Shown piece by piece: positions 23,864 through 38,692 of a stretch of 52,749 bases of DNA. The notes beneath the pieces were generated by a model that saw only the letters and a list, made by a program, of their open reading frames with translations, ran no database searches and was not told the DNA's origin. The translations under genes and the position numbers were made by a program. Numbering within the stretch: position 1 is the first letter of the stretch; each line of letters starts with the position of its first letter. Source of the stretch: an uncultured Bacteroidales bacterium (GTDB lineage: Bacteria > Bacteroidota > Bacteroidia > Bacteroidales > Paludibacteraceae); contig CADAZU010000005.1 in assembly GCA_902792535.1 (NCBI GenBank), forward strand, positions 1 through 52,749. Direction: 5' to 3'.

Positions 23864-24096
23864 AACATTACACAGATTCTTCCGGCTTCTTTGGTGAAGA
23901 TTGAGGGATAACGGCAAATGCAGGCATAGACCTGCGCGGAGGTAACCGGTTTGCCGTCCTTACGCAAGTGCCATCCATTGCGGTTGATAGCGGCGGCTAT
24001 CTGGTCAGTCGTCTTTCCATGACCATCCGACATGATGGCATACCTGCGAAAGCAGTTTCTCCGCTTCGCGTCGATTATTGCTTCCTCAATTTTCAT
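23860..24096 (-). CDS. Small winged-helix-like protein
   Basis: This 78-residue protein reads GHGKTTDQIAAAINRNGWHLRKDG, then PVTSAQVYACICRYPSIFTKEAGRICVML. The layout (helix, 'IAAAINRNG', second helix, then a 'YPSIF...G' wing) resembles the HARE-HTH domain found at the N-terminus of restriction and chromatin proteins and of RNA polymerase delta. That assignment is by eye and tentative. Its start overlaps the Nudix stop by one base and its stop overlaps the next start by 4 bases. Confidence 0.6.
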   Translation of the reverse strand: MKIEEAIIDAKRRNCFRRYAIMSDGHGKTTDQIAAAINRNGWHLRKDGKPVTSAQVYACICRYPSIFTKEAGRICVML

Positions 24097-24554
24097 TAGT
24101 CAATCTTTAACACTTTCTTTGCGTCAGCCAAAATCTTGTCATGGTCGAAAGCGAGTTTCGGCAACGCATTCATCGGCCACCATTTGGCTGCAGCGGCGTC
24201 GTCTGCGGCAGTTGCTTCCGGCATAGTGGTCATGGCGGTATAAGCTGCTGTGATGACACGTCCACGTGGATCACGCTCTACGTCGGAATAGATACCCACC
24301 AACTGCATGCCGGTCAGCACAATGCCGGTCTCTTCCTCCAGTTCCCGCTCGGCACAACGAGCAACCGTCTCATCCATCTCAAGAAACCCACCCGGAAAAG
24401 CCCAGCAACCTTTGTACGGCTCATTACCGCGTTGAATAAGTAGCACATGCATCTGTCCGTCTTTCTCGGCAAAGAGCACGGCATCAGCCGTCACACTTGC
24501 CCGTGGCCAACGATAGGCATATAGCCCGTTCGATGTCTTTGTGTAGTCTATCAT
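24096..24554 (-). CDS. Nudix hydrolase
   Basis: A 152-residue protein with an intact Nudix box, GGFLEMDETVARCAERELEEETGI, at about residues 55-78, with the catalytic REexEE glutamates present. The N-terminal ASVTADAVLFAE and the GCWAFPGGFLE lead-in match the ADP-ribose pyrophosphatase-like and NrtR-like subgroup. The substrate is not proven. Its neighbour, an ADP-ribosylglycohydrolase overlapping it by 4 bases, would release ADP-ribose, which makes ADP-ribose a reasonable guess. Confidence 0.9.
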   Translation of the reverse strand: MIDYTKTSNGLYAYRWPRASVTADAVLFAEKDGQMHVLLIQRGNEPYKGCWAFPGGFLEMDETVARCAERELEEETGIVLTGMQLVGIYSDVERDPRGRVITAAYTAMTTMPEATAADDAAAAKWWPMNALPKLAFDHDKILADAKKVLKID

Positions 24555-25396
24555 AGTTCAGCCAATTTCTCCATTACTTCCCAAAACTCCTTAGGCAGGC
24601 GCATACGCATCTGCTCGATGATCTCGTCGGGAATATCCTTATAATAAGCCTGTGCAATGCCTCCGGTGATGCAAGCGAGCGTATCGGAGTCACCACCGAG
24701 CGAAACCGCGAGACGGATAGACTCCTCATAGTCGTGGCTGTCGAAGAATGCCAAGAATGCAGGCGGCACGGTGCCTTGACAAGAAGACTCCCAGTCGTAG
24801 TACGGTCGTATCTCGTCGCAAGTGTGCTTTAAGTCATAACCGAAGGTCTGCTCTATATAAATTCGTATTGCCTCCTTCGTCTCGCCCTGACGAGCCATGA
24901 AGATAGCAGCTGCAGTGGCTTGCGCGCCCTTGATGCCTTCGGGATGATTGTGCGTGATCTCTGCACTACGTTTGCCCAAGTCCAATGCCTCTTCGATAGA
25001 TTTAGCAGCCCATCCGCAAGCCGATGCACGCATAGCAGAACCATTGCCATACGAGTTATATGGATGACGCTTGCCGTCCTCAAACGGTTGACCATTGAAG
25101 TCATGTAACCTCTGCGGTTGGAAGAGCCACGTGCGGAATCCGCCACCATAACCACCCATCGGGCATTGATAGTGTTTCGCCCAATAGACCAAACGATCCT
25201 CCAACTGTTCTTGCGAGCGGTCTGTATTCACCAACCAATCAGCCACGGCGATAGTCATGATGCTATCGTCGGTGTATTCCGCACGGCGGTCAAACAGCGG
25301 CTGAAAATCGGTCGTCTTGATGTTATCAAACTCATACACAGAGCCCACGGTATCACCGATGATAGCTCCTAAACAAGGAAATTTACTCGTGTCCAT
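24551..25396 (-). CDS. ADP-ribosylglycohydrolase family protein
   Basis: A 281-residue protein of the ARH/DraG family, which removes ADP-ribose from proteins, or from nucleic acids in some members. Metal-binding motifs are visible: YTDDSIMTIAVADWL near residues 40-55 and GGDSDTLACITGGIAQA near residues 235-250. The length is normal. It is the first gene of a six-gene run with overlapping ends (ARH, Nudix, wHTH, 37-residue, ICMT, AlkD). The promoter (25455-25491) carries the palindromic operator shared with two other operons. Confidence 0.9.
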   Translation of the reverse strand: MDTSKFPCLGAIIGDTVGSVYEFDNIKTTDFQPLFDRRAEYTDDSIMTIAVADWLVNTDRSQEQLEDRLVYWAKHYQCPMGGYGGGFRTWLFQPQRLHDFNGQPFEDGKRHPYNSYGNGSAMRASACGWAAKSIEEALDLGKRSAEITHNHPEGIKGAQATAAAIFMARQGETKEAIRIYIEQTFGYDLKHTCDEIRPYYDWESSCQGTVPPAFLAFFDSHDYEESIRLAVSLGGDSDTLACITGGIAQAYYKDIPDEIIEQMRMRLPKEFWEVMEKLAEL

Positions 25397-25454: not shown

Positions 25455-25491
25455 GCAAAATTAGCACATCAAACTGACACTACAAGTCAGT
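25455..25491 (-). promoter_or_regulatory. Shared operator-promoter A (ADP-ribose/repair operon)
   Basis: The inverted repeat ACTGAC (25473-25478), 7 bases, GTCAGT (25486-25491) covers the -33 TTG at 25485-25483. The -7 box TAATTTTGC is at 25463-25455, exactly 19 bases away. The same arrangement is at 32282-32318 and 38656-38692. Transcription would start near 25449, about 50 bases before the ARH gene. Confidence 0.85.
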
Positions 25492-25505
25492 CATGCAAAA
25501 AAATG

Positions 25506-26426
25506 CTATTTTTCGTACATTTTCGCTAAATTCTCGCTTTCTTCTTTGAATTCGTCTCGCAGATGGGCGGGTTCAAGGACTTCGAGGGTCGAACCGAATT
25601 TACGCAGTTCTTGGATGAAATCGTACGTCGGAGCAACATAGAAACCGAAGATACTGTACTCGTCGTTACGCTCCAACTCAAACTGGCTGCCGTGGATCGG
25701 TAGCGTGCGCATGTAGTTAGCGTCGTACGCGCTCATCTTCACCTTGATACGCTCTGCCTCGGTGATGCGTCGATCGACGCCGAACTGGTTAGCAAAGAAC
25801 TTCGACGCCTTGAAATCCTTGGGCATCTTAAACGTCTTATCCGTCGCGGTCAGCTCTTTCACACGGTCAAGCGAATAGACGCGCGGATCGGCTTCTTCGG
25901 GATGGTCATCCGGCTTGCCGATGACGTACCAACGACGTTTGGACAACTTCAAACAGTATGGTGCCAGCAGGAACGAGTGCGGCTCGGGACGCACGAAATT
26001 CTGATAAGAGATATATAGCTGTTTTCCGTCTCGCATGGCATTGACGATGGTGGACAGATAACGTGTTCCTTCGGGAATGGTCTCAAACAGAATACGATCT
26101 TCCATTCCGCCACCGAGGTTGACCATGTTATTGATGGCAAACGTGTTCATCAGCCACGAACGCATACCGGCTCCATTGGCTTCGTTGAGGCCTTGGATGG
26201 AATACTCTTTGGTGGTACGATTGCACACGATGTCGATACCGAACATCTCCTGAATGGTCTCACGATGGCGGTGGAAGTTTCGTTCCCCATACTCGGTCTC
26301 GTGCATGTCATTATACCGTGCAGTGGACCACCGGCGGTCTATCTCGTCCCGCGAGATATGCCCTGCGCTGTAGATCGTATCTACCAGCCAAATCAGTCTC
26401 TGAAAAAGTTTTGATTGAGCAGCCAT
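25506..26426 (-). CDS. WYL-domain transcriptional regulator
   Basis: A 306-residue protein. Residues 1-60 form a winged-helix start (LFQRLIWLVDTIYSAGHISRDEIDRRW). From about residue 115 the WYL domain follows: AMRDGKQLYISYQNF, APYCLKLSKRRWYVIGKP, and YSLDRVKELTATDKTF. A C-terminal extension follows (IHGSQFELERND, EELRKFGSTLEVLEP-like). WYL proteins such as BrxR and CapW are known repressors of phage-defence loci and bind inverted repeats. It is the last gene of the restriction-modification operon, directly beside operator A, so control of the ACTGAC-N7-GTCAGT sites is the leading inference. Confidence 0.87.
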   Translation of the reverse strand: MAAQSKLFQRLIWLVDTIYSAGHISRDEIDRRWSTARYNDMHETEYGERNFHRHRETIQEMFGIDIVCNRTTKEYSIQGLNEANGAGMRSWLMNTFAINNMVNLGGGMEDRILFETIPEGTRYLSTIVNAMRDGKQLYISYQNFVRPEPHSFLLAPYCLKLSKRRWYVIGKPDDHPEEADPRVYSLDRVKELTATDKTFKMPKDFKASKFFANQFGVDRRITEAERIKVKMSAYDANYMRTLPIHGSQFELERNDEYSIFGFYVAPTYDFIQELRKFGSTLEVLEPAHLRDEFKEESENLAKMYEK

Positions 26427-26453
26427 ACGATTTTCGTGTATAAATTCTATTGC

Positions 26454-27890
26454 TTAATATGATTGTTCATTAAATGCTTGATTCAATTTTGCCCATGCTT
26501 CATTAAGGTTAACTCCTACGAACTCTTTGTCGTAGCCGACAGGTTCGTGTAACGTAGGCTCCAATGATTGCGGAGATTCAAAAGATGATGTTTCCTCTTT
26601 TAGAGGGAAACATATACGGATGATTGCTATCACCTCGTCACCGCCTTGCTTGCCGGAGAAGTTCTTCGTGATAGTATCATGCGCCTTCTGATTGGCAAGA
26701 TAATATCGCCAGTTGCGTTTTCCTGCACAGATAAGATGCAATACGGCACTTCTGATAGCTTCGTTATGGGCAAAGGTTTTGCCATATAGTGCGTCTTCAT
26801 CTTTATAAGTGCGATATTTTTCTAATTTACTCAATACCCACAATACCAATAGATATTCCAGTTGGATGTATATGGCTCGCGTATTGTTGTTATCGTTGAG
26901 AATATCCGTAATTTTTTGATTAACCCAATAGTAGTCCTCCGATGGTATATGGCTGAAATTGGCTCGCACATAATAGTGTATGAGCGTATAAAACACCTTA
27001 CGACCAATATCTGTTTTGGGATTATGTTTGGCAAAATCCACCCAATTACCATTTGGAACCAAGATGTCATAGATGCACCACTCGTATTCTTCGTACAGAT
27101 CACGGAAAGGTTTGCGTTTAATCTCTTCTATCACTTTTGCAGCGGAGGCTTCATCGCGCTTCTGCTTCCATTCATTCACTATGGTTTCTAAGCGTTGGTA
27201 CTCTTTTTTTGATGCAGCGCGAAGTTCTTCTGCCTCTTTCGCTTCTCTTTCTTCTTCGGCTAATGCTTGTTGACACTTTGCTTCATTTTCTCTATCCCAG
27301 ACCGGACAACTAATCCATTCTCTATGTTCGGTGTCTTTCGTAAGCCGTTCAATTACATCTTGTTCTGTATATTCGGTTCCGAGTAAGTCTTTAAAATCAA
27401 TCTCTATGCAATATACTCCTCGTCGTCTTATGTCTTCTTTACGTTCCGTATCTACTTTATGACGGCAGTATATCTCGACCCATAATGGATAGGTTGCATC
27501 TTCTTGTGTACAAACGCAATCTGGCTTACGAGTAGAACTCTCGTCTTTCCATACTTGCTCTAATACTACATTGGCAAATTCCTTTTGCAGCGCTTCGTGC
27601 GTGACATATTCCGTATTATAAGCCGGTAACATCACCACTTTGTCTCGTTCAAGAACTTTCTGTGCCAACATGTGGAGTGCGGTCATGCGCGCGCCACCAC
27701 AATCAGCTCCGCTAGTGTGTGCGAAATGGTGCGTTTTTTTCTTTCCTCCGTTTCGGGCGATTAGGTCGTGCTGGCAATGAGGGCACACACAATCGCAGTC
27801 TAAACCGTTCGGAACCTGTGAATCATCAATAAACAATAACTCATCCGTAGTTCCTCGTTTTAGACCATATGTCAGCATTTTATCATGCAT
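26454..27890 (-). CDS. CoiA-like nuclease-family protein
   Basis: This 478-residue protein has a zinc-finger-like start (CVCPHCQ with C36 and C39; THHFAHTSG at 53-61), as in CoiA and related proteins. A PD-(D/E)xK-type core follows, with RKPDCVC (D124) and WVEIYCRHK (E139), and then DIRRRGVYCIEID. A charged coiled coil lies at about 200-250 (EEREAKEAEELRAASKK). The last 230 residues are helical and not recognised. CoiA is known from competence, but in Bacteroidota such proteins often sit in islands. Here it follows the second methylase by 10 bases and precedes the WYL gene by 27, so it is part of the restriction-modification operon. Whether it is the nuclease, an accessory part or a processing factor is unknown. 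Confidence 0.72.
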   Translation of the reverse strand: MHDKMLTYGLKRGTTDELLFIDDSQVPNGLDCDCVCPHCQHDLIARNGGKKKTHHFAHTSGADCGGARMTALHMLAQKVLERDKVVMLPAYNTEYVTHEALQKEFANVVLEQVWKDESSTRKPDCVCTQEDATYPLWVEIYCRHKVDTERKEDIRRRGVYCIEIDFKDLLGTEYTEQDVIERLTKDTEHREWISCPVWDRENEAKCQQALAEEEREAKEAEELRAASKKEYQRLETIVNEWKQKRDEASAAKVIEEIKRKPFRDLYEEYEWCIYDILVPNGNWVDFAKHNPKTDIGRKVFYTLIHYYVRANFSHIPSEDYYWVNQKITDILNDNNNTRAIYIQLEYLLVLWVLSKLEKYRTYKDEDALYGKTFAHNEAIRSAVLHLICAGKRNWRYYLANQKAHDTITKNFSGKQGGDEVIAIIRICFPLKEETSSFESPQSLEPTLHEPVGYDKEFVGVNLNEAWAKLNQAFNEQSY

Positions 27891-27900
27891 AGAGCTAATC

Positions 27901-29100
27901 TTATGCTAAACCGGTAAAGTCAGAAAGAGGACGGACTTTGGATCTGTATGTGTTAATACGCTGTTTAAGACGTGGTGGCTTCGTAAATTCCACCGGCTTA
28001 TTATCAAAAGGAATAACGATGTAATACTCCGCGTGCTCGGGATGAAAGCCATGTTGTTCAAGTGTTTCTTTTTTCCATATTGAGAACGAGCCTTCTTTTC
28101 CTTTTTTTATGTGGAAAAGTTGAGCATCATCACCACCTGTATGTAGTAAAACATAACGCATTTTCTCAAATCCGGGAGTTACTTGTAGAGATCCATCACT
28201 TTCGCCCGCGCGCATATAGCAGATTCCTTTTTCTATCATTAGTTCACGCGTCTCCTTACGAGCATGATTGACGATGACTGTTACCTCTTCTGGATTTTCG
28301 CGCATTTTGCTCAAAAACTTTTCTGCAACCTTTGTGTTGCTAATCTCTTCAACACGACGGATTCCTAATTGCAGAAATTCTTCTGACATATCTACACCGA
28401 TAAACTTACGTCCAAGAAGTTGAGCTGCAATACCAGTTGTACACGAGCCTGTAAAAGGATCAAGGATAGTATCACCTTCATGAGTGCAAGCAAGGATGAT
28501 GCGATAAAGCAAGCGCAAAGGTTTTTGAGTCGGGTGTTTTCCACATTTCTTCTCCCACATACTTGGTGCTGGAATCTTCCATACATCCGGCATGTGTACA
28601 CCTCCGTTCATCGATTTCATCAATTCGTAATTGAAAAAATGCTCCACTTTCATTTCCTTTCGAGCCCAGATAATGTATTCTGCTGAAAAGTTAAAGCGCT
28701 GGTCGGAAATTGTTGTCGGTGGGTCTGACTTTTGCCAAACGATGATATTGAGAATCTTGAACCGCTGTTCTTGCAAACATATTGCCACATCAAAAATATT
28801 ATGGTACGTGCCACTGACCCAAATAGTGCCATTCGGTTTTAGTACTTGACGGCAGGCGGAAATCCATTTTGTATTAAACTCGTGAACTTCTTTTGAAGGG
28901 CGTGCTCTATCCCAATTACCTTTATCAAAACTAATGATACGATTATTTATTCGAACCTTACCATTTCCTGACGACAAGAAATAAGGAGGATCAGCAAATA
29001 CGCAATCTACCGAATTTGGGGATAATTGTTGGCAAATAGAGGCGCTATCCCCATTTAACAACACGAAATCATTATGAGAATAATAAGGCTCCATTTGCAT
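27901..29100 (-). CDS. Beta-class adenine/cytosine-N4 DNA methyltransferase
   Basis: A 399-residue enzyme. Catalytic motif IV, DCVFADPPYFLSSG, at residues 32-45 comes before the SAM-binding motif, DPFTGSCTTGIAAQLLGRKFIGVD, at 214-237, which is the beta-class order seen in HinfI-like enzymes. HPTQKP (189-194) is the usual companion motif. Residues about 285-399 form an extra C-terminal domain (SFSIWKKETLEQHGF and others) that may help recognise DNA. It is the third gene of the restriction-modification operon, between the HNH gene (9-base gap) and the CoiA-like gene. Having two separate methylases in one operon is unusual. Confidence 0.9.
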   Translation of the reverse strand: MQMEPYYSHNDFVLLNGDSASICQQLSPNSVDCVFADPPYFLSSGNGKVRINNRIISFDKGNWDRARPSKEVHEFNTKWISACRQVLKPNGTIWVSGTYHNIFDVAICLQEQRFKILNIIVWQKSDPPTTISDQRFNFSAEYIIWARKEMKVEHFFNYELMKSMNGGVHMPDVWKIPAPSMWEKKCGKHPTQKPLRLLYRIILACTHEGDTILDPFTGSCTTGIAAQLLGRKFIGVDMSEEFLQLGIRRVEEISNTKVAEKFLSKMRENPEEVTVIVNHARKETRELMIEKGICYMRAGESDGSLQVTPGFEKMRYVLLHTGGDDAQLFHIKKGKEGSFSIWKKETLEQHGFHPEHAEYYIVIPFDNKPVEFTKPPRLKQRINTYRSKVRPLSDFTGLA

Positions 29101-29109
29101 AATGATGTT

Positions 29110-30294
29110 TTAAGCAAATAATCTATGACAATGGATATCCGTCTTTAGCGCATTATGCTGCGAAAGATACCACCGGAAGTCATCGCTTAGAATGTTTCTC
29201 GGTAATTCGTGAGAAGTTGTAATAGTCTGTAGATATTCCGCACTAGAATGAGGAACATTGTCACGTACTAACAAATGACCTTCTGGGGAGAATAATAGGA
29301 TGTCTGCATCAAACAACTTGTGGTGGTTTTGACATAGCCAAAGACCGTTATGACCATTTGTTGCATGAACGAACTTTTCTTCATCGCTCAAATTTACATT
29401 ATGGGATATTTCAGATACACCCCAAATATGAGCTCCTTGAATAATCTGCGGAATGTCGCATCCACACAATGCACATTTCTTGTAGCCAATACGCTGGAAC
29501 AGATTGTATGTATATGCAGAAGAACGCAGTTCATTTCTTTCAGGCGTATCAAATAGTTGTCGCCGATCAAAGGTAAGAGATGTATTATGAATCGTCAAAT
29601 TTGGGATATGAGCCAATGTGTTTAGAGAACTCTGAGGTAGTTGGCTCAAATCTTGTTCGCAGATATTATACAAATCTATCGGATTATCTGCAATGTGTGC
29701 AACTGCCAGAGCTAATAAGGTGGATTCGTATTTACTTGCGCCATAAACCTTCGCATAGATCTGTATCTTATCTATAGTTCTGGAAACATACGACGAGTTG
29801 TTCGAAGCGTTGCTCTGCTGATTATCGTTCCTATCTTGGATGATTTCATCAACATTAGAGTATGGTTGCAAATTTCCGTGATAATAGTCTCCTATATTTA
29901 GAAAGCGAACCCCGGCTGTCATCAAAAGTTTGTAAGCAAACAAGTGATAGTCTGTAAAAGGGTTGCCGACGTGCGGCATGAAATAATAGTACAGCCTTTT
30001 GTTGGCCGAAGGATCTGCATAAAATATATTGATAGCAGTTGGTACACTTTGTAAACTTGAGTTACGTCCTGCTATTTCAGTTTCGGATAATGAGATATAG
30101 TTCTTTGTGCCTTGCCACTCCAAAAGTAATAATCGTCCTTTGTTGTAGGTCGAAGTATCCCTTACAACTTGATACTGATTCTGCCCAGTAATACGATGAC
30201 AAATGTCTCTCAGTACTTCTGGCGTTAAAATTTCATCAAATAGCCCATACGTCTTTTGCGCATTAGGACGATATGTAAAAATGGCTTGAGGCAT
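29110..30294 (-). CDS. HNH restriction endonuclease
   Basis: A 394-residue protein. The C-terminal HNH_2-like nuclease is plain: zinc pair CALC at 274-277, GAHIWGVSE with the His near 289, NGHNGLWLCQNHHKLFD at about 313-329, then DILLFSPEG. The first 250 residues (including PHVGNPFTDYHLFAYKLLMTAGVRFLN) are not recognised beyond resembling restriction enzymes; they probably bind DNA. It lies between two methylase genes, 4 bases after the first and 9 before the second, which supports a type II role. The specificity is unknown. Confidence 0.85.
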   Translation of the reverse strand: MPQAIFTYRPNAQKTYGLFDEILTPEVLRDICHRITGQNQYQVVRDTSTYNKGRLLLLEWQGTKNYISLSETEIAGRNSSLQSVPTAINIFYADPSANKRLYYYFMPHVGNPFTDYHLFAYKLLMTAGVRFLNIGDYYHGNLQPYSNVDEIIQDRNDNQQSNASNNSSYVSRTIDKIQIYAKVYGASKYESTLLALAVAHIADNPIDLYNICEQDLSQLPQSSLNTLAHIPNLTIHNTSLTFDRRQLFDTPERNELRSSAYTYNLFQRIGYKKCALCGCDIPQIIQGAHIWGVSEISHNVNLSDEEKFVHATNGHNGLWLCQNHHKLFDADILLFSPEGHLLVRDNVPHSSAEYLQTITTSHELPRNILSDDFRWYLSQHNALKTDIHCHRLFA

Positions 30295-30298
30295 AAGT

Positions 30299-32152
30299 TT
30301 AATAATTTGTTATGATTATCTCTTTCCGGTTGTTATATCTGCCTTGGGTAACAGGAACATCAATGACATTATAATGTCGATGATTAGCCCAATCAGCAAT
30401 TTCTTTATTGTAGAAATCATCAATTTGGAGCACGTACGACAACATGAATTTAGAACCTCTTTCGGTTACAGCATCAAGGAAGTTGCACATCTTCTGTTCA
30501 TGTTCAAGCGTCCATCCCTCAAATCCACGTTTACCATCGTTATACACACCAAGAGTAGCACGGTATGGAGGATCTGCATAGACAAATGTGTCTGGATTGA
30601 TTCTTTCCAAAAGGTTCTCAAAGCTCGTATTTGTGTATTCTACATTACGTTGATGCAATACGCGTGAAAATGAGATGAACTTGGATTGTAAGCAACCATT
30701 GAACCAACGAGAGCCGGGAGGATTATTGAATTCGTGCGCTGAGTTGAATCGAATTTGTTGTTGGAAACCATATAGAATCAACGTGTATAGCATACGCGGG
30801 TCTCGCTTTTCAATAGGAATTTTATTATATGTCTCACGGATAGCAAGATAACCCTCTTTGTAATCTGGTGCTAATTGGTATTGTTTGATTAACTTGTCTA
30901 TATAGCGCAGATAAGAAACGGTGTCCGATTCAAAAGAACGGATTAATGCGTTTACAAACGGATTAATATCATTGTATACCAGGTGCTCTGCATCAATATT
31001 GATACCAACATTGAATCCTCCACCGAACAAATCAATGAATGTATGAATGGGATTATTGGGTAGATTCTGCTTGATAAACCCAATCATTTTTGCTTTGCAC
31101 CCCGTGTAGTTAAGTGGAGATTGTAGAACTACTTCCGATGTCGGTTTCTTTTCTACATAGAACAAATATTCACAGTGATTCTCTGCGCCTTGACATTTGA
31201 AGTTATTGTATTTCTTATAATTGATTACACGGCATTCATAAGTCTGCTCATAACCAAATCTTTTGAATGTTGATTCTACAAAATCAGGGGATATGAAGCC
31301 ATCATTATTATAACTGAAGATAATATACTTTGCCTTTGTCAAAGCCACCACTTTCTCAAATAATATCTGTGAATAATATTGCTTTGACCAGTCAGAGCGC
31401 ATTGGTGTAGTCGGGCGTGAGCCTGTGACCCTACTTACTGTCGGATTATCATTCAATACAAGCGTTTCTAATAAGTGATACTGAGTTCCATATTGGTTTT
31501 GAGTGTACGGAGGATCTAAATATAGGACATCACAATCTACATCGGCTATAATTTCCTCTATGCGCCGATTATATACTAGCACATCATTTACTATTCCTGT
31601 CTTACTGTCTATTGGTAAAAACTCAATCGATTTTAAGGCTCGTGCATCCCAATGTTTGAGAAAAGCGCCATATACACCTGCGGTATTCGAAACCGAAGAT
31701 ACTGCTTCTAATAAGCAAGCCAGCAAGTATTTGTATTCTCTGTCGTTGATTCTATGATTCTGATACCATTCTTCAATCTGATAGCGGAAATAATCAATTC
31801 TACCGGCATTCTCTGCGGTAAAGTACATACGGTTTGTTTGTGTAGGAGCATAAGTTGAATAGATGAAACCTTCACGAGTATTTTTGTCGCTTGCAAAGTA
31901 TTCAAAAGGATTGAAACCAAGTGTCTCAAATGTACACTGATTGGCATACAATCTACCTTCAGTGAAAGTTGTGCAACAATGGAGAATGTCGTTAATAATG
32001 AGATGCGGGAAAGCTTTCTTAACGGAATCGCTAACAGAACCCATTCCACAAAAGGCATCAAAGAAAATAGCATCTTCATCAAAGATACCCTTTTCTGCCA
32101 TTAATTGCAGAATGTCGTCTGTTAAGCTATCTTTATTTCCCAAAAATCTCAT
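30299..32152 (-). CDS. Fused double D12 adenine DNA methylase
   Basis: This 617-residue protein has two D12-class (Dam-like) adenine methylase domains in tandem. Domain 1 has FLGNKDSL near the start, FDAFCGMGS at 31-39 and LYLDPPYTQNQYG at about 211-223. Domain 2 has NYTGCKAKMIGFIKQN at 348-363, FIDLFGGGFN at 372-381 and YADPPYRATLG at about 525-535. The layout is that of M.FokI, in which each half methylates one strand of an asymmetric site. The start at 32152 (MRFLGNKD) is the family's usual start, and a good -7 box precedes it. A longer in-frame start at 32245 would be used if transcription began at operator B. It is the first gene of the restriction-modification operon. Confidence 0.9.
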   Translation of the reverse strand: MRFLGNKDSLTDDILQLMAEKGIFDEDAIFFDAFCGMGSVSDSVKKAFPHLIINDILHCCTTFTEGRLYANQCTFETLGFNPFEYFASDKNTREGFIYSTYAPTQTNRMYFTAENAGRIDYFRYQIEEWYQNHRINDREYKYLLACLLEAVSSVSNTAGVYGAFLKHWDARALKSIEFLPIDSKTGIVNDVLVYNRRIEEIIADVDCDVLYLDPPYTQNQYGTQYHLLETLVLNDNPTVSRVTGSRPTTPMRSDWSKQYYSQILFEKVVALTKAKYIIFSYNNDGFISPDFVESTFKRFGYEQTYECRVINYKKYNNFKCQGAENHCEYLFYVEKKPTSEVVLQSPLNYTGCKAKMIGFIKQNLPNNPIHTFIDLFGGGFNVGINIDAEHLVYNDINPFVNALIRSFESDTVSYLRYIDKLIKQYQLAPDYKEGYLAIRETYNKIPIEKRDPRMLYTLILYGFQQQIRFNSAHEFNNPPGSRWFNGCLQSKFISFSRVLHQRNVEYTNTSFENLLERINPDTFVYADPPYRATLGVYNDGKRGFEGWTLEHEQKMCNFLDAVTERGSKFMLSYVLQIDDFYNKEIADWANHRHYNVIDVPVTQGRYNNRKEIIITNY

Positions 32153-32180
32153 CTCGGATTGATTCTTATTAAATTCGGGT

Positions 32181-32211
32181 GCAAAGATACACAAAAAATC
32201 TGGATTATGAA
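32181..32211 (-). promoter_or_regulatory. Internal promoter just before the double D12 methylase
   Basis: A perfect -7 box TATCTTTGC at 32189-32181 with a weak -33 TTC at 32211-32209, 19 bases away. Transcription from here starts about 25 bases before the ATG at 32152 and would exclude the longer start at 32245. The sequence after the box (TTTGCACCCGA) nearly repeats that of operator-promoter B, as if the promoter had been duplicated. Confidence 0.6.
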
Positions 32212-32281
32212 AATTTATTTCATAAATTGCATCATTTTGACTCATTAAAACAACAAATTTCGTAATTTTTCAAAATCGGGT

Positions 32282-32318
32282 GCAAAAGTAGTACAACAAA
32301 CTGACACCAGAAGTCAGT
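32282..32318 (-). promoter_or_regulatory. Shared operator-promoter B (restriction-modification operon)
   Basis: ACTGAC (32300-32305), 7 bases, GTCAGT (32313-32318). The -33 TTC at 32312-32310 is in the spacer, and the -7 box TACTTTTGC is at 32290-32282, 19 bases away. The spacer sequence ACCAGAA is the same as in operator C. It controls the longest transcript of the operon, starting near 32276. Confidence 0.85.
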
Positions 32319-32382
32319 CGTGAAGAAAATAATGCAAAAAAGTGATTTTTTATGAAAATGAAGATATTTTTTTGCGTGAAAA

Positions 32383-32416
32383 TGTAAAAGTGTGAGCGTT
32401 TGCCCACACTTTTACA
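32383..32416. terminator. Strong hairpin after the DUF3987 gene
   Basis: TGTAAAAGTGTG (32383-32394) and CACACTTTTACA (32405-32416) form a perfect 12-base stem with a 10-base loop, directly after the stop codon at 32427. The T-run on the minus strand is interrupted, so termination is likely rather than certain. Confidence 0.7.
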
Positions 32417-32426
32417 TGTTGCCACG

Positions 32427-34862
32427 TTAGATCTTTCTCCACGTTGTTTCCGTGGATTTCTCAATACGGTGGTTGTTGCGCCAGCGGTTGAGAACCATAC
32501 TGATGGCAGCCGACTTGACGGATTGACCTTTGCGGGCACGGAGTTTGATGAGATCCGCGGCGGTGAACTCTGCCGGAAGTAAGGCAAGGAGAGACGCTGC
32601 TGCTCCGCGTTCGGACTGAGCATCCATAGAGCATTTGATCTCTTGCTCCATCTGTTCGCCCCAGAGTTCCATCTGATTGCGGAAGACATACTCGGCAACC
32701 CATTCGGCAAAAGATGCGACGGTTTTGGTGAACTTGCGGTTTTCGAGGAGATAGCAGAGCATACCAGCACGGAAACCGATGACACCGGCACGACGGCGAA
32801 GCGTATCCATGGAATGAGAGTCCGCATCAATGGCTTGTTGGCGTTTGGCTTCGAGCCAATCGGAAATGACGGTGTTGAGTTGGGGACAACTGATGTGGAC
32901 GAGGCCTTTGGTGTCCGAATTCAATTCGGACGAAATGGACGAAGACTTTCCGATGGCATCTAACTCGCGAGCCCAACGGATGATCTCGGCGCGCTCGGAT
33001 TCGGTATAGGGAGCGAAGACGGGAATTTCCGAGAAAGAGGTGTCGGGCAATTGGGCGAAGCAGACACGCGTGGCAAGACCGTTTTCGAGATCTTTGAAGA
33101 AGCGCTTCATGGAGTTGGGTGTGCCGGTCAATAACAGGTTGTAATAGACCTTGATATGGGCGTTGAAACTCGCATCGGACATGTAGGCTTGACCATATTC
33201 GGCATTGTCGAACGCAAGACGGTAGATGTCGGATTTCTGGCTCCAGACACCTGCACGTTCGGACTTGACCAGCGTGTCCATTTCTTCGCCGATACCGATG
33301 AGGTGCTTGCCCTCTGCATACGTCAGCAGTTGGAGCAGTTTGGCGATGGAGATAGCGACACCGTTGTTGCGCGGACATGCGTGCGGATCTTCGGGTTGGT
33401 TCTTGCTGTTCTTGGACGCGCGTAACTTCTCTTTGTAGGCTTGCTCTTTCTCGCGCTCGATAGCATCCTGTTCGTTGATAGGCGTGAGGAGGAGATCAAG
33501 CGGTTTGCGGATGAAAGATTTACCGCTGGCAGCAGGAGCGGTGATACAACTGAAGAACGAGAGCGACTGTTCCTGACGATCCAAGTACTCGAAGCGGATG
33601 CGGGTTGCCAAAGTGCCGAGGATGGGCAGCGAGGCAATGACCATCGCGGGTTGGTATTCTTCGGGCAAGCGGCGGCAGACGAGTTTGAGTAAGCGAGGTA
33701 ACGGCGGCAACGCCAAGTTCGTTGATTTCTGATTTGAGATTTCAGATTTGTTATTGGTTAGTTCGCGCTCACGCTCGCAGATAGCAATAGCACCTTGTAC
33801 CACAACCGGCAGTTCGGACTTGCGCGGACGACCGATGGCTGAAGAGATAGCTTGGCGGCGTTCTTGCTCGGAGAGACCGAAGTCCGGGAGGATTTGGAGC
33901 AAGAGTTCGGAATTGAAATCACAGATATAGCGCATATAGACCGCAAGGGAGAAATAGACGGTGTTGCGCTCGCCTTGGACGGCTCCGCCACAGTTGCCGG
34001 TGGAGATGAGGAGCTGGTTGACGATGTCGGCATAGGGGATGCCGCGGTACGTTAGACCGGCTTCGCCTGTTTGAACGCTATCGCTGTTTGAACGCTCCGC
34101 TGTTAGACCGTCCTGCGGACTGATAGACTGATCAACATGTGGCGGGAGGGCAAGTTGCCGGATGGCATCCGACGCAAAAGAAGAAGCAGGCGGCTCTTGG
34201 GAGCCGTTGTCCGGATTTAATCCGGACGCAATAGACGAAGAAAAGAGACCAGACTCATCGATAAAAAGGATATAATCGCGGGGAACGACGTACGAGGCAC
34301 GAGCGAGATCCTTGGTGACGGAATCGTATGCGGGGATGCCAAGCGCGGTGGCTATACGGAGCTGGGCAGCTTCAATGGATTCGAGTTGTCGGATGGCATC
34401 CGACGGAAAGGAAGAAGCATTCTCCGCGCTGACGCCCGGAGCACCCGACAAAGAAAGCCTTTCACCTATGATGCGGATGCCATGACCGGAGGCAGTAATA
34501 GCTACAAGATAAATCTTGTTAGATTTGAGATTTGAGATTTGACATTGGACATTTTTCTCAAACCAATCGCGGGGATTGTCCACATGATCCACATCGAGCA
34601 TTGCAAGACCGGACGGAATGGCATCGGCGGAGATGCGCTTGCCGTTCTTGAAAGAGGCGGCGTGCGGGATGATGATAGGCAAGCGGCGTTTGAGGGCTTG
34701 CTTGCGGTCGTTGTAGTCCTCGGCGGTTGGGTCGAGCGCGGCTATACGACGGCAGAGGTTAGACACTTCGGGACTATCAATGAGGTTGTCCCAGATTTCG
34801 GGAGTGCAAGGCTTTGGCGTGCCTTTGCTGACGCTTTCTTGATAACAAAACATATTGTTCAC
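32427..34862 (-). CDS. BT4734-like / DUF3987 protein (primase-helicase type, mobile-element associated)
   Basis: This 811-residue protein opens with the BT4734/VirE-type N-domain: KQALKRRLPIIIPHAASF, then SGLAMLDVDHVDNPRDWF, then VAITASGHGIRII. The DUF3987 domain follows from about residue 395, with ATPase-like FFSCITAPAASGKSF near 455, NGVAISIAKLLQLL, and IGIGEEMDTLVKSERAGVWSQKSD. Such proteins are common in integrative elements of Bacteroidota and are thought to act in replication. No integrase or relaxase accompanies it here. Two segments (residues about 103-114 and 367-380) are encoded by heptad repeats, and the phrase SDAIRQL occurs twice (near 125-135 and 225-235). It probably ends an operon with two small genes. 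Confidence 0.78.
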   Translation of the reverse strand: MNNMFCYQESVSKGTPKPCTPEIWDNLIDSPEVSNLCRRIAALDPTAEDYNDRKQALKRRLPIIIPHAASFKNGKRISADAIPSGLAMLDVDHVDNPRDWFEKNVQCQISNLKSNKIYLVAITASGHGIRIIGERLSLSGAPGVSAENASSFPSDAIRQLESIEAAQLRIATALGIPAYDSVTKDLARASYVVPRDYILFIDESGLFSSSIASGLNPDNGSQEPPASSFASDAIRQLALPPHVDQSISPQDGLTAERSNSDSVQTGEAGLTYRGIPYADIVNQLLISTGNCGGAVQGERNTVYFSLAVYMRYICDFNSELLLQILPDFGLSEQERRQAISSAIGRPRKSELPVVVQGAIAICERERELTNNKSEISNQKSTNLALPPLPRLLKLVCRRLPEEYQPAMVIASLPILGTLATRIRFEYLDRQEQSLSFFSCITAPAASGKSFIRKPLDLLLTPINEQDAIEREKEQAYKEKLRASKNSKNQPEDPHACPRNNGVAISIAKLLQLLTYAEGKHLIGIGEEMDTLVKSERAGVWSQKSDIYRLAFDNAEYGQAYMSDASFNAHIKVYYNLLLTGTPNSMKRFFKDLENGLATRVCFAQLPDTSFSEIPVFAPYTESERAEIIRWARELDAIGKSSSISSELNSDTKGLVHISCPQLNTVISDWLEAKRQQAIDADSHSMDTLRRRAGVIGFRAGMLCYLLENRKFTKTVASFAEWVAEYVFRNQMELWGEQMEQEIKCSMDAQSERGAAASLLALLPAEFTAADLIKLRARKGQSVKSAAISMVLNRWRNNHRIEKSTETTWRKI
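33723..33764. repeat. In-frame heptad repeat inside the DUF3987 gene (1)
   Basis: Six units in 7-base register, starting tgatttc, tgatttg, agatttc, agatttg. It encodes the linker LTNNKSEISNQKS between the N-domain and the ATPase domain. Confidence 0.7.
34521..34555. repeat. In-frame heptad repeat inside the DUF3987 gene (2)
   Basis: Three perfect agatttg units followed by acattgg and acatttt. It encodes VQCQISNLKSNK within the N-terminal domain. The unit is the same as in the repeat at 33723. Confidence 0.8.
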
Positions 34863-34888
34863 AGATTTAACAGATTAAACATTTTGGG

Positions 34889-35251
34889 TTAATGGACGTT
34901 GGCGGATTTGGTGGCATTCCACTTGCCTTTGGAGCGGGTCCATTCACAGCCGACGGCATGGATTTCGGCATGGTCTTCGGGATAGAGTTTGCGTTGGCGG
35001 ATAGCACGTTTTTGGACGGCTTTCTGCATCACTTTCCATTGTTCCTCAGTGACTTCGAGTTTGTCAATACAATGGACGTTGTAGATGTCACAATCTGCCA
35101 TCCATGGGTTCATGGTCATACGGCAATGGGTCTTGAGAGGAATTCCACGTACACCGGTCACCTTTCCTGTCTCGGTGTAGAAGGGGCAGTCCTTGCTACA
35201 AGGACTACCACCTTTCCTAAGAGCGATGATTAACATGAGTTCATTTACCAT
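34889..35251 (-). CDS. Small Cys-containing protein of the DUF3987 operon
   Basis: A protein of about 120 residues. I do not recognise it. It has GGSPCSKDCPFY near the start and CDIYNVHC in the middle, four Cys that could bind a metal, then a basic helix (MQKAVQKRAIRQRKL) and a Trp/Lys-rich end. The first few codons lie in a 7-base repeat (35242-35276) that makes several possible ATG starts (35266, 35251, 35236), so the true start is uncertain. It overlaps the upstream gene by about 11 bases and is followed by the DUF3987 gene. Confidence 0.6.
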   Translation of the reverse strand: MVNELMLIIALRKGGSPCSKDCPFYTETGKVTGVRGIPLKTHCRMTMNPWMADCDIYNVHCIDKLEVTEEQWKVMQKAVQKRAIRQRKLYPEDHAEIHAVGCEWTRSKGKWNATKSANVH

Positions 35252-35639
35252 TTGACGATTTACCATTTTCGATTTTCAAAACACGGATGGCTTCTACCAC
35301 TTTCGACAGCTCCATCTCACAGAGGTTGTCGCCCATCTGCTCGACCTGCTGCGCAAGGATGTCGGCGAGTTCACGACCGGTAGCGTAATCCTCATGCGGG
35401 ATATACAACTCCAGTTTGATGTGGTTGGCATTGGCGGACACTTTTCCGTTCTTGGATTTGTCCAGTACCTGCCAGTGGAGTTCGGGATGGATCTCGTGCT
35501 GTTTTGCACCACGTTCGGTAAAGGTGAACTTGTCTTCCTCGTTGCGGAAGAGTGTTCCTTTACGGCTGTCCAACACTTTGAGGTCTCCCTCTTTCATTTG
35601 CGTGATTAAGTCCACGCATAACATTACATTTTTTTTCAT
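35241..35639 (-). CDS. Unknown 132-residue protein, first gene of the DUF3987 operon
   Basis: This hydrophilic protein begins MKKNVMLCVDLITQ and contains GAKQHEIHPELHWQVLD and HIKLELYIPHEDYATGRELADILAQQ. The beta-then-helix pattern suggests a compact domain. No family is recognised. Its last ten residues (KIENGKSSNGK) come from the 7-base repeat at 35242-35276, so the original stop was probably elsewhere. The leader upstream (35640-35757) has a short GGCAC-C-GTGCC palindrome. Confidence 0.6.
   Translation of the reverse strand: MKKNVMLCVDLITQMKEGDLKVLDSRKGTLFRNEEDKFTFTERGAKQHEIHPELHWQVLDKSKNGKVSANANHIKLELYIPHEDYATGRELADILAQQVEQMGDNLCEMELSKVVEAIRVLKIENGKSSNGK
35242..35276. repeat. Heptad repeat at a gene overlap
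   Basis: Units catttac, catttga, cgattta, ccatttt, cgatttt in 7-base register. It supplies both the end of the 132-residue gene and the candidate starts of the next gene. Confidence 0.75.
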
Positions 35640-35757
35640 AATTGTAAAAATTTTAACGCTGTGGCACCGTGCCGCAGTCGCTAAGATTCTACAATTTTGC
35701 GACCTCAGTTTTGTGTTAAATATGAAGTAAAAAATGCAAGATTTCGTTAAATGACAA

Positions 35758-35793
35758 ATAAAAAACGACCGACAGAATGTCAGCCGTTTTTTA
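35758..35793. terminator. Terminator between the three-gene operon and the DUF3987 operon
   Basis: CGACCGACA and TGTCAGCCG form a stem with seven Watson-Crick pairs out of nine around GAA, flanked by A-run and T-run. On the minus strand it ends in TTTTT, so it can stop the operon that ends at 35817. Confidence 0.75.
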
Positions 35794-35816
35794 TGACTTT
35801 GTGGCAGTCAGAGCGA

Positions 35817-36407
35817 TTAGAGAGTTCCATAAGGTTTGATGTGATCTCGCCGGCAAGCCAATGTATAGATGGAGTAAATGTTGTCCGCTATTTGTTTGAA
35901 CTTACGGAAGAAGCCATCAGCGTCCATGTTGGAGCATTGCCAATTTGGATAGCGTGTGTTGGGATCAATGTACGCGCGATACTTGGTTAGGTTCTGCGAG
36001 TTCTTAGGCACTTCCCGGAAGCGTTTGTCTTGCAGGATTTCCACCAGTTGGTCGTAGTTTTTGAGTAGTCCCAAGTCTTTTCCCAGCCTCTCCGCAGCCA
36101 CCCAGTCATAGGTATTGCTCATAAGGAGGCGATATGAATCTTTGTTTTGCTTGATTTCTTGCGCTTTGAGCATTGCTTCTTTGAAGAGTTGCAGATGTTG
36201 GTCGATAGTGCCATCTGAGATTTCTGTGTTTGGTTGCTCGGAGGGCAGCGGTTGTTGCGGAACGGGTTCCGACTGTGCAGAGAGTTGTTCTGCGTTCATC
36301 ACTTGGATGTTTCCGTCTTTGTCCATGTGGACATCCATGTGCTCGACGTTGGCTATGTTCTGACCAACGGGAGCGTGAAAATTGAAAGTAAAATTTTTCT
36401 CACTCAT
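35817..36407 (-). CDS. Unknown protein, third gene of the ANVE-motif operon
   Basis: This 196-residue protein begins MSEKNFTFNFHAPVG, then QNIANVEHMDVHMDKDG. This beta-rich start carries a motif (hydrophobic-N-h, then P/G-x-N, then IANVE-x-h-x-h) that also occurs at the C-termini of the two genes upstream. A Pro/Gln/Ser linker (residues 40-65) leads to a helical domain with YRLLMSNTYDWVAAERLGKD and YPNWQCSNMDADGFFRKFKQIADNIY. I do not recognise the family. Its start overlaps the upstream stop by 8 bases. A terminator follows. Confidence 0.65.
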   Translation of the reverse strand: MSEKNFTFNFHAPVGQNIANVEHMDVHMDKDGNIQVMNAEQLSAQSEPVPQQPLPSEQPNTEISDGTIDQHLQLFKEAMLKAQEIKQNKDSYRLLMSNTYDWVAAERLGKDLGLLKNYDQLVEILQDKRFREVPKNSQNLTKYRAYIDPNTRYPNWQCSNMDADGFFRKFKQIADNIYSIYTLACRRDHIKPYGTL

Positions 36408-37530
36408 TGTTGTTTATATTTAGTTGTTCAACATTAGCTATTAGTTGATTAGTAGGCGCGTTCACATTGATGGTTTGAGAGACATAAATGAATTTTCCCA
36501 AGTCAATCGGGGCTTGTGGAGAATCCACCTGTGTCGAAGAATTATGGCGCAAGTAGTCTGCTAATTCATCGACCATCTGCTTTGCGTTACTGACCATAGG
36601 GCGAATTGGTTTTTGCGAGTTAGTCGTGTCGATTTTCTCTACGGGTTCTTCGAAAGCTATTTGCGGTTGCGAGAGATTGATAATCTCGTCCATCGCGGCG
36701 CACGATTGCTTGAGCGTGTTGCCCAAGCGTGTGAGTGTAAGATAATCGACCGTTGCGGCAAAGAATTTGGTTTGGCACCACGTGGTTCGCGGATGTGTTT
36801 TGATTATAACCGCCATAGCCCAGAGTGTTTGGTATGCAGGTTCTTTGTCGAAATACATATATCGGTCAGCGAGTTGCATGAGTCGATATCGCATTGGGTC
36901 AATGTAAGCCGATTGCGACATTGGCGGCATGTTGGCTTTATCATGCGTGTTCTCAAAGAGACCCGCTTGGACGATGAACTTGCTTGCGAACTCATGTGCT
37001 ACATGGATAACCAATTCAGGCGGAAACGCGCCGGTGTAATGCGGATATGAGGGCATGTGTTTAGCCATGATTTTATCTTCCTCGCTCATTGTGTATTGAA
37101 ACGGAATGCCATAGGCGATGCGTTCGAGGTTTGGTCTTGGCCAATCGAGATAGGCACCATGGTACTCATCGCGTTTGCTTTGCTCCAGATTGAAATGTAT
37201 AAGGCGGGCACATTCTACTTCAAAGGGACGCCGATTGGGAGAAAATTGGTTCATAGCAAAGACCGTTGTTTGCGCATTGCTTCGCAGGAAAGCGAGTACA
37301 CGGATAGTCTCTTCCCGTGAGATTATTTTGTCGATGAATTTTTTCAGTCCATCGTCTTGCAAATCGGAAGAAAAAGCATACCATTGGATTTCGTAATAGT
37401 CCACTATCTGCTCGCGAGAGAGGAGATTGGCAAGGATGTCAAGTTCGGTGGTGTTTTGATATCTCGGATAGTCGATACTCATCATCCTCAGCAGGAGTTG
37501 GTGGAGTGTTTCAAAAGAGTATTTGTACAT
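36400..37530 (-). CDS. Unknown protein, second gene of the ANVE-motif operon
   Basis: This 376-residue protein is mostly helical and has no known catalytic motif that I can see. Notable segments are YEIQWYAFSSDLQDDGLKKF, NQFSPNRRPFEVECARLIHF, YMYFDKEPAYQTLWAMAVII and TTWCQTKFFAATVDYLTL. It ends in a linker followed by INVNAPTNQLIANVEQLNIN, the same motif that opens the next protein. It lies 7 bases after the first gene of the operon. Confidence 0.62.
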   Translation of the reverse strand: MYKYSFETLHQLLLRMMSIDYPRYQNTTELDILANLLSREQIVDYYEIQWYAFSSDLQDDGLKKFIDKIISREETIRVLAFLRSNAQTTVFAMNQFSPNRRPFEVECARLIHFNLEQSKRDEYHGAYLDWPRPNLERIAYGIPFQYTMSEEDKIMAKHMPSYPHYTGAFPPELVIHVAHEFASKFIVQAGLFENTHDKANMPPMSQSAYIDPMRYRLMQLADRYMYFDKEPAYQTLWAMAVIIKTHPRTTWCQTKFFAATVDYLTLTRLGNTLKQSCAAMDEIINLSQPQIAFEEPVEKIDTTNSQKPIRPMVSNAKQMVDELADYLRHNSSTQVDSPQAPIDLGKFIYVSQTINVNAPTNQLIANVEQLNINNNE

Positions 37531-37537
37531 ATAGCAA

Positions 37538-38467
37538 TTATTTGAAGTTTACATTATCAGCAGATGCGACAAGGGTATTCACTTTGTCCTCAAAATGAAA
37601 GTGCATTTCGGTCGGTTTGGAAGTGTCTTGTGTTTTGGTCGAGTCGGGAATGCCAGCTTTTATTTTCCATGAATGCAGATACGGGTCCAGTTCTTCGAAA
37701 AGCGCTCTACGGTAACGTTCTTTCTCATAGTTGTCTAATTTTTGAAAGTCATAGAACTTTACAGTTACGAACCAATTCCATTCTTGCCGGAACCGCTCCA
37801 CTATTTCTACCGCTTTGGCATGACCGCGGTGGGCGATGATATAGTCCAAGGAAAGGCGGATGTCACGATAACCACCAAACAAGAATCTATCCCACAAGAT
37901 CATTGTATCGGGCATGTCATCGTAACGATAGTCGTTGTACACATCTTCTTTGGTGGGCATGGTGTCCGCGAACCAAAGAAGTCCACGTTCTCGCATTTCA
38001 TTATAGAAACCATAGCGTCCATCCGCGAAAGAGAAATTCTCCGGCGGCACTAATTCGGCAGCTACATCACCATCGACTACGTATTCATCTCTCAAATCGA
38101 ATGGTGGCACCCATACTAAGGGATATGACAAAACATGATCTATCTTTTCAAGTACTTTGTAATCAAAACAGTCCGTCATGCGTAGCCAATCCACTTGATT
38201 TTTCTTGGCATAGAGTTGTTCCGCAAACAAATGATTGCTGAGCAAATCATTGCAATCAAGAAAACTATGGTTGGCATGGTACAATCCTGTTTGATTATCC
38301 AATTTCAAATCAGCTATGTCCTGCGAATTGGAATGTTGCCATCTCTTTTTGAGTAAATCTCGCATCTCATCAATGGTCACGAGACGGTTTTTGAATTCTG
38401 ACACTACATGCTCCGGAAAGTTCCTTTCCAAATCATTAAAATACTCACTGTTTAAGTTTCTGCTCAT
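37538..38467 (-). CDS. Unknown protein, first gene of the ANVE-motif operon
   Basis: This 309-residue protein starts MSRNLNSEYFNDLERNF and carries several acidic/aromatic stretches (YHANHSFLDCNDLLSNH, YDDMPDTMILWDRFLFGGYRD, RFRQEWNWFVTVKFYDF). No family is recognised. The C-terminus, EMHFHFEDKVNTLVASADNVN, resembles the motif ending the next protein. Transcription probably begins at operator-promoter C, giving an unusually long leader of about 180 bases with two palindromes. Confidence 0.62.
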   Translation of the reverse strand: MSRNLNSEYFNDLERNFPEHVVSEFKNRLVTIDEMRDLLKKRWQHSNSQDIADLKLDNQTGLYHANHSFLDCNDLLSNHLFAEQLYAKKNQVDWLRMTDCFDYKVLEKIDHVLSYPLVWVPPFDLRDEYVVDGDVAAELVPPENFSFADGRYGFYNEMRERGLLWFADTMPTKEDVYNDYRYDDMPDTMILWDRFLFGGYRDIRLSLDYIIAHRGHAKAVEIVERFRQEWNWFVTVKFYDFQKLDNYEKERYRRALFEELDPYLHSWKIKAGIPDSTKTQDTSKPTEMHFHFEDKVNTLVASADNVNFK

Positions 38468-38627
38468 ATATGTTATAAATTTTGATTAAGTTCAAAGTTC
38501 ACCTCTTCACTTTTTCACACAAGATTTTGTGTTCAGATTTTTGTCATAATAATATAATAATTTATATTTATTATGGCGTAAAAATCAAGCCACACGGATG
38601 CGTGAAATTGTGGTTATGTGTAGTTGC

Positions 38628-38643
38628 TCCGTTCGCGAACGGA
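38628..38643. promoter_or_regulatory. Perfect 16-base palindrome TCCGTTCGCGAACGGA
   Basis: It lies about 10-25 bases downstream of the predicted start site of operator-promoter C, a position where a bound protein could block transcription. A related, imperfect GTTCGCG-rich palindrome is in the leader of the DUF1295 gene near 52540-52560. Confidence 0.5.
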
Positions 38644-38655
38644 CACAATTCGGCG

Positions 38656-38692
38656 ACAAAATTACTACATCAAACTGACACCAGAAGTCAGT
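38656..38692 (-). promoter_or_regulatory. Shared operator-promoter C (three-gene unknown operon)
   Basis: ACTGAC (38674-38679), ACCAGAA, GTCAGT (38687-38692). The -33 TTC at 38686-38684 is in the spacer and the -7 box TAATTTTGT is at 38664-38656, 19 bases away. It is the third copy of the arrangement at 25455 and 32282. Confidence 0.82.

Follow-up and report, generated by a model that had tools for sequence, protein, structure and literature searches.

The stretch of DNA analysed here (the window) comprises 52,749 nt of contig CADAZU010000005.1 from an uncultured Bacteroidales bacterium of the family Paludibacteraceae (assembly GCA_902792535.1). It carries three gene groups, each preceded by an exact copy of the 19-bp palindrome ACTGAC-N7-GTCAGT and a −7 box, and the last gene of one group encodes a regulator with winged helix-turn-helix (wHTH), WYL and WCX domains. 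Very probably, these neighbouring anti-phage and ADP-ribose gene groups carry one switch that is read by the nearby WYL regulator. The operator-promoters, read on the minus strand in all three cases, and the genes behind them are:

25473..25491, minus strand, operator 1, ACTGAC-TTGTAGT-GTCAGT (pattern search)
25456..25463, minus strand, −7 box TAATTTTG of promoter 1 (pattern search)
24551..25396, minus strand, ADP-ribosylglycohydrolase, operon 1 first gene (Pfam, 7e-40)
24096..24554, minus strand, Nudix hydrolase, operon 1 (Pfam, 2e-22)
32300..32318, minus strand, operator 2, ACTGAC-TTCTGGT-GTCAGT (pattern search)
32283..32290, minus strand, −7 box TACTTTTG of promoter 2 (pattern search)
30299..32245, minus strand, D12-type adenine methyltransferase, two matched stretches, operon 2 first gene (Pfam)
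29110..30294, minus strand, HNH endonuclease, probable restriction enzyme, operon 2 (Pfam)
27901..29100, minus strand, N6/N4 DNA methyltransferase, operon 2 (Pfam)
26454..27890, minus strand, CoiA_N-domain protein, operon 2 (Pfam)
25506..26426, minus strand, wHTH-WYL-WCX regulator of 306 amino acids, operon 2 last gene, predicted operator reader (Pfam)
38674..38692, minus strand, operator 3, ACTGAC-TTCTGGT-GTCAGT (pattern search)
38657..38664, minus strand, −7 box TAATTTTG of promoter 3 (pattern search)
37538..38467, minus strand, protein of no Pfam family at the cut-off, operon 3 first gene (Pfam scan)
36400..37530, minus strand, uncharacterised protein, operon 3 second gene (Pfam scan)
35817..36407, minus strand, uncharacterised protein, operon 3 last gene (Pfam scan)

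Each of the three palindromes stands, without a mismatch, where the first-pass annotation had placed it, and a fourth exact copy was found on contig C61 of the same genome, making four in 2.37 Mb against 0.14 expected by composition. Among the 245 inverted repeats of the window with 6-bp arms and spacers of 3–12 bases, ACTGAC with a 7-base spacer was the sole combination of arm and spacer with at least three copies; a shuffle control that allowed two mismatches is weak evidence (mean of 1.40 matches; at least three matches in 19 of 100 shuffles). All four genome copies share the promoter TTS-N19-TAnTTTTG. The annotation had described a shared promoter with a −33 trinucleotide 19 bases from the −7 box; this distance holds at all three sites of the window, but the trinucleotide reads TTG at site 1 and TTC at sites 2 and 3, and TTG in background promoters favours 20 nt. 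The strict operator-promoter pattern has four exact matches in the genome, and allowing three mismatches added one place that uses all three; the reversed control pattern likewise gave one. Beyond the ~40-bp operator-promoter, identity between the sites is near background. Duplication of a larger segment was ruled out, as the similarity ends near the operator-promoter edges.

Site 2 lies upstream of five genes with the WYL gene last, site 1 starts 14 nt 3′ of the WYL stop codon and lies upstream of the ADP-ribosylglycohydrolase and Nudix genes, and site 3 lies upstream of three genes. The C61 site stands between a WYL gene 98% identical to that of the window and genes for an ADP-ribosylglycohydrolase, a UPF0102-like protein, a Nudix protein and a two-piece exonuclease-like frame. 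Judged by gene spacing, about 10 genes in the window and 3–4 on C61 would be co-transcribed from these promoters; the window by itself thus supports about 10 of the ~14 genes originally given. Operon 1, first described as ADP-ribose/Nudix/AlkD, contains the ADP-ribosylglycohydrolase and Nudix genes; membership of AlkD is unproven, with ~350 bp and another gene in between. The exonuclease-like gene on C61 (recognised by eye; locus L075, G000:C61, 223-738, G000 being the genome of the window) is split over two reading frames, and its counterpart in genome G183 is a single frame over the stretch present on the contig.

The regulator matches Pfam PF13280 (WYL; 1e-12) followed by PF25583 (WCX; 3e-10). 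Its AlphaFold model (mean predicted local distance difference test score 78.8) places helices at residues 2-21, 26-34 and 48-62, then two strands, which completes the order wHTH-WYL-WCX. Structure alignments of the model to BrxR, CapW and PafBC start at residues 1-4, with a large root-mean-square deviation across all domains. A profile search of the PDB returned only DriD entries (1e-9) and PafBC (2e-5) at E ≤ 0.01; DriD ranks first among PDB entries in both the profile and the structure comparison, the structural match spanning the C-terminal two thirds. R182 and R188 are invariant among 28 WYL orthologues and align with DriD arginines, which is no more than suggestive of an ssDNA or other nucleic-acid ligand in the WYL domain. 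The patterns used to look for relatives of the protein in viral contigs matched 19 stretches, of which none was confirmed.

Extending the motif search to relatives lent the proposed regulon strong support. Among 178 genomes of the genus, 27 contain a WYL orthologue (E ≤ 1e-95) and 19 the operator-promoter pattern, and none contains the reversed control pattern. The operator-promoter pattern occurs in 16 of the 27 genomes with an orthologue vs 3 of the 151 without (Fisher p = 4e-13; the genomes are related, not independent). Of 29 orthologous loci, 21 have a strict site 14–150 nt (median 37) 3′ of the WYL stop codon. In six of the 29, a second strict site (in the window also a third) lies ~3–16 kb before wyl on the same strand; G189, one of the six, has its site only there. 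Loci L076, L078 and L082-L085 are without a site by the strict pattern, with degenerate candidates at L084 and L085 and, in the L076 genome, a strict site unlinked to its WYL locus (G317:C40). The latter is one of four strict sites on contigs other than the WYL contig (with G251:C70, G238:C59 and G111:C5), of which two lie upstream of HIRAN or ADP-ribosylglycohydrolase-Nudix genes and the other two upstream of a racemase-like gene and a gene for a small beta-flower protein.

The genes before wyl vary among these loci: a Zac-type system (G230; a single locus was scanned), type I (G183) and type IIG (G317) restriction-modification, a Mokosh-like system (G257) and, in the window, type II restriction-modification. 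The genes after the sites recur, namely HIRAN, ADP-ribosylglycohydrolase, Nudix, PARG and LigT-type 2H phosphoesterase genes. A cassette order of defence genes, wyl, operator and accessory genes is found repeatedly in relatives, often with an operator also before the defence genes.

The register of operator and promoter is fixed. With spacings of 4–24 searched, the distance from GTC to the TA of the −7 box was 12 in 25 sites and 13 in 11, with no other value in the 36 strict sites. In a set of 34 sites, which leaves out those of G266 and G346, spacing 12 goes with TNG and spacing 13 with AAG in the spacer.

The half-site, in turn, follows the helix-turn-helix of the regulator. By strict sites, all 12 loci whose WYL protein has R26 carry T, C or A immediately before the upstream GAC, and all 11 loci with L, M or I at residue 26 have a GGAC half-site; the loci are related, and these numbers are not a count of events. 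The 12 include L098, whose site has a different spacer and belongs to neither the 34- nor the 36-site set, and the 11 include G337 (I26; second contig piece, L167). In a natural chimera (G189; L079, G189:C25, 9754-10671), the helix-turn-helix comes from one clade and the WYL-WCX part from another. Its residues 1–80 are 91% identical to the protein of the window and 62% to L083, its residues 110–306 are 66% and 73% identical, respectively, and its WYL-WCX part clusters with L083 and the GGAC loci at an ultrafast bootstrap of 95. The operator of G189 matches the class found in the window exactly. Judging from these sequences, the operator class tracks the DNA-binding domain of the WYL protein, chimera included.

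These data bear on whether another regulator reads the operators, with the WYL protein a mere neighbour. At the threshold used, a WYL orthologue is missing from three of the 19 pattern-bearing genomes, as such a reader would allow: G266 and G346 also lack an obvious target gene, and in G304 the site lies 209 bp into the contig, where wyl may have been cut off by the contig end. The co-occurrence, the adjacency in 21 of 29 loci, the half-site class that tracks the WYL helix-turn-helix even in the chimera, and the words that paralogous WYL loci carry of their own (see below) all speak against it, and we regard a separate regulator as very unlikely. Binding of the operators by the nearby WYL protein, and with it the single WYL-run regulon first proposed, is in our judgement highly likely.

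To characterize the register beyond orthologues, we compiled 83 WYL paralogue loci, 80 from other genomes (the best ones, from a search in which 86 of 150 genomes had a match) and three from this genome. Dyads with perfect 6-bp arms before TAnnTTTG peak with their axis 18.5 bp before TA (23 of 1081 boxes), vs at most 6 boxes at any other distance and 2/584 and 2/557 for two control patterns. Within 500 bp of WYL genes, 18 of 248 boxes have perfect arms at 18.5, against a mean of 0.37 per position; with at least 5/6 pairs, the same 248 boxes yield 46 at 18.5 against a mean of 2.3 per position (−55 to +60). The next highest of the 231 positions in this range is −2.5, with 12 boxes. The half-site words of the paralogues differ (CTCCC, TGCC, CTGC, GGAC and others). 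One such word defines a second WYL-type regulon in this genome, with four exact ACTCCC-N7-GGGAGT operator-promoters in the same register (pattern search):

G000 C12:29281-29316, ACTCCC-N7-GGGAGT operator-promoter
G000 C12:40356-40391, ACTCCC-N7-GGGAGT operator-promoter
G000 C15:21307-21342, ACTCCC-N7-GGGAGT operator-promoter
G000 C15:29717-29752, ACTCCC-N7-GGGAGT operator-promoter

The C12 and C15 sites adjoin two WYL paralogues with nearly identical N-terminal 60 residues.

Copies of a mobile promoter segment or recombination site, devoid of regulatory meaning, might account for a cassette joined to different defence systems and for WYL genes 96–99% identical to that of the window in different surroundings. 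Against such copies stand a similarity that ends near the operator-promoter edges, a promoter register kept in all 36 strict sites, and paralogues that keep the geometry and not the sequence; we give this explanation almost no credence.

WYL-type promoters are further set apart by their −33 region. As background we used predicted promoters, that is, intergenic TAnnTTTG boxes up to 220 bp from open reading frames (ORFs) of at least 150 amino acids, with predicted starts. TTG occurs at spacing 20 in 91 of 283 of these (at 19 in 17 of 283), compared with 1 of 57 WYL-type promoters (p = 1e-7), a lack that is partly forced by the operator, because the half-site itself bars one base of the −33 TTG. 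The T fraction upstream is 0.66 in WYL-type promoters vs 0.40 in the background. Separately, TTG at spacing 14 before TAnnTTTG forms a second peak beside spacing 20 (12% of background boxes); these boxes are probably further WYL-type promoters, with the right half-site after a TTT run.

A palindrome over the −33 box had initially been taken for a classic repressor site, and a repressor resembling BrxR and CapW, whose dimer over −33 would block the sigma factor until released by a phage-derived ligand, has to be weighed. The register, however, stays rigid among paralogues whose words differ, 56 of 57 promoters lack TTG at spacing 20, no position on the −7 box or downstream of it has dyads in numbers comparable with 18.5 (12 boxes at −2.5 vs 46), and the sequence profile of the WYL protein is nearest to activators. 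We therefore consider the repressor unlikely, though a serious contender. The fixed register, the missing −33 box and the nearest similarity to DriD and PafBC suggest instead an activator that replaces the −33 contact. Because its promoters are without the usual −33 box, the WYL dimer is most likely an activator; taking co-occurrence, register, −33 gap and likeness to DriD and PafBC together, we think that the protein probably activates its target promoters.

In the proposed mechanism, a homodimer of the WYL protein, and of its C61 copy, would read the four operator-promoters as one regulon, each helix-turn-helix contacting one GTCAGT half-site. Since the axis of the dyad lies 18.5 bp upstream of the −7 box, the −33 position falls inside the palindrome, and the dimer over this region would recruit or hold sigma and RNA polymerase in the manner of DriD and PafBC. 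As a trigger, the WYL domain may, by analogy, bind a nucleic-acid or nucleotide signal, for example single-stranded DNA (ssDNA) from phage attack or DNA damage; ADP-ribose, the ligand predicted by Iyer et al. (see below), is a fair alternative to ssDNA. As output, the restriction-modification operon with wyl (a positive feedback), the ADP-ribose-processing operon and the third module would be raised together.

This arrangement is close to that of DriD, the ssDNA-sensing WYL activator of Caulobacter crescentus, likewise a wHTH-WYL regulator with several promoters. DriD sites overlap the −35 element at one distance to −10 and have poor −35 boxes (PMC12340889); the 20-bp pseudo-palindrome on −35, the fixed −10 distance and the poor −35 box described there are matched by the operator geometry here. 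Here, too, the site lies over or next to −33 at a fixed distance from the −7 box (12 or 13 nt at all 36 strict sites; paralogue peak at 18.5) and the −33 box is poor, in part through the half-site. DriD differs in that it governs a DNA-damage regulon in Caulobacter, whereas defence and ADP-ribose operons with a TAnnTTTG box are concerned here in Bacteroidales, and activation is predicted. Mycobacterial PafBC / RecA-NDp promoters have a published consensus, tTGTCRgtg-8nt-TannnT (PMC5656591), which the PafBC motif closely resembles (PMC8223512); TGTC, within TGTCRGT, lies 16 bp before TA in this consensus, equal to the 12-gap sites here. PafBC activates by sigma adaptation, to which the proposed activation may be likened, but it is a heterodimer with one −26 motif, whereas an inverted repeat and presumably a homodimer are found here. 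SiwR of Mycobacterium smegmatis is a homodimeric WYL activator with a 19-bp imperfect palindrome between −35 and −10 beside its own gene; it serves a single operon with DinB-like genes in oxidative stress. Like the WYL protein here, BrxR and CapW stand next to defence genes and have palindromic operators in defence-operon promoters; a single island holds two BrxR operators. The CapW operator (19–24 bp), however, lies on the −10 box and that of BrxR (27 bp) after it, whereas the dyad axis here is 18.5–19.5 bp upstream of the −7 box. For ADP-ribosylglycohydrolase systems, Iyer et al. 2022 predict from gene neighbourhoods WYL regulators that are negative and ADP-ribose-sensing (PMC9503650). These ARG systems with WYL or Nudix regulators share with our locus the link between WYL and ADP-ribosylglycohydrolase, and HIRAN and 2H domains occur in the same networks. 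They differ as a neighbourhood prediction of negative regulators, with no operator in the part of the source available; here, operators join ADP-ribose and restriction-modification operons. Our searches of an open-access library for WYL operators of Bacteroides or Bacteroidales returned nothing on the subject, and no paper on the Zac proteins was among the matches listed; within that scope, the fixed register is unpublished.

Several observations weigh against an activator-run regulon of this kind. BrxR and CapW, which have the same domain order and also stand beside defence genes, are repressors, and placing the joint production of nuclease and methylase under an activator does not obviously make sense. 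The strict pattern is absent from 11 of 27 orthologue-bearing genomes, and no strict site follows wyl in 8 of 29 orthologous loci; the 22-bp pattern without promoter occurs in 7 of 250 genomes of the family, four of these with other spacers. Two weaker candidates break the half-site rule, the second site of L092 (CAGAC) and an imperfect GTGAC-N7-GGC at L085 (L26). Among the paralogue loci, 42 of 83 have a dyad at 18.5 or 19.5 with at least 5/6 pairs, some by chance, and 41 have none. Besides the constraint imposed by the half-site, the −33 comparison is affected by background promoters being filtered for a following ORF and paralogue sites being unfiltered, and TTG at spacing 19 is mildly enriched in WYL-type promoters (9/57 vs 17/283; p = 0.02). 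Since the genome is an 82.65%-complete metagenome-assembled genome with incomplete contigs, the C61 locus may be a strain variant and not a second locus.

Operon 3 is the weakest, least certain member of the regulon. Homologues of its first gene occur in 17 of the 178 genus genomes, its own counted, and the 28 other loci are without a dyad of perfect arms at 18.5 or 19.5; three entries show 5/6 pairs (first 1700 nt per strand), two of them probably one place. Because these homologues stand elsewhere without a perfect-arm operator, operon 3 may be a recent capture. It is directly followed by the longest stem of a terminator scan that overall found 13 terminator-like sites vs 14.5 in shuffles; the accompanying sigma-70 scan does not cover Bacteroidota promoters, and served for the terminator only:

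35758..35794, minus strand, terminator-like hairpin of 17 pairs, directly 3′ of operon 3 (terminator scan)

Two of the operon-3 proteins (35817-38467) contain the short similar stretches NAPTNQLIANVEQ and HAPVGQNIANVEH, and the third a looser one; by eye only, 316-amino-acid proteins after other WYL sites (L094 4346-5296; L135 9836-10786) have a loosely similar stretch. Between operons 2 and 3 (32427-35639) lie a DUF3987/BT4734-like protein and two small genes, mobile-element-like in character. Further along, at 39918-44444, a single frame of 1508 amino acids apparently fuses an AcrB-type RND pump to an outer-membrane efflux protein domain.

The finding bears on how defence islands switch on; BrxR and CapW, the characterised WYL regulators of defence operons compared here, both repress. 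Genes for ADP-ribosylglycohydrolase, PARG, Nudix, HIRAN and 2H-phosphoesterase proteins would share their control with restriction-modification and other defence genes, and are therefore predicted to act in the same response. The fixed operator register in WYL paralogues provides a rule by which regulator, operator and regulon can be located jointly from Bacteroidales sequence, and it renders the choice between activator and repressor directly testable. On balance, we lean slightly towards the view that WYL activators form a large family in Bacteroidales, with a half-site word particular to each and a dyad fixed 18.5 bp before TAnnTTTG that replaces the −33 element of the unusual sigma factor of this phylum; such a family would form several plug-in regulons, at least two of them in this genome (ACTGAC and ACTCCC, four exact sites each), which would switch on defence and ADP-ribose modules together.

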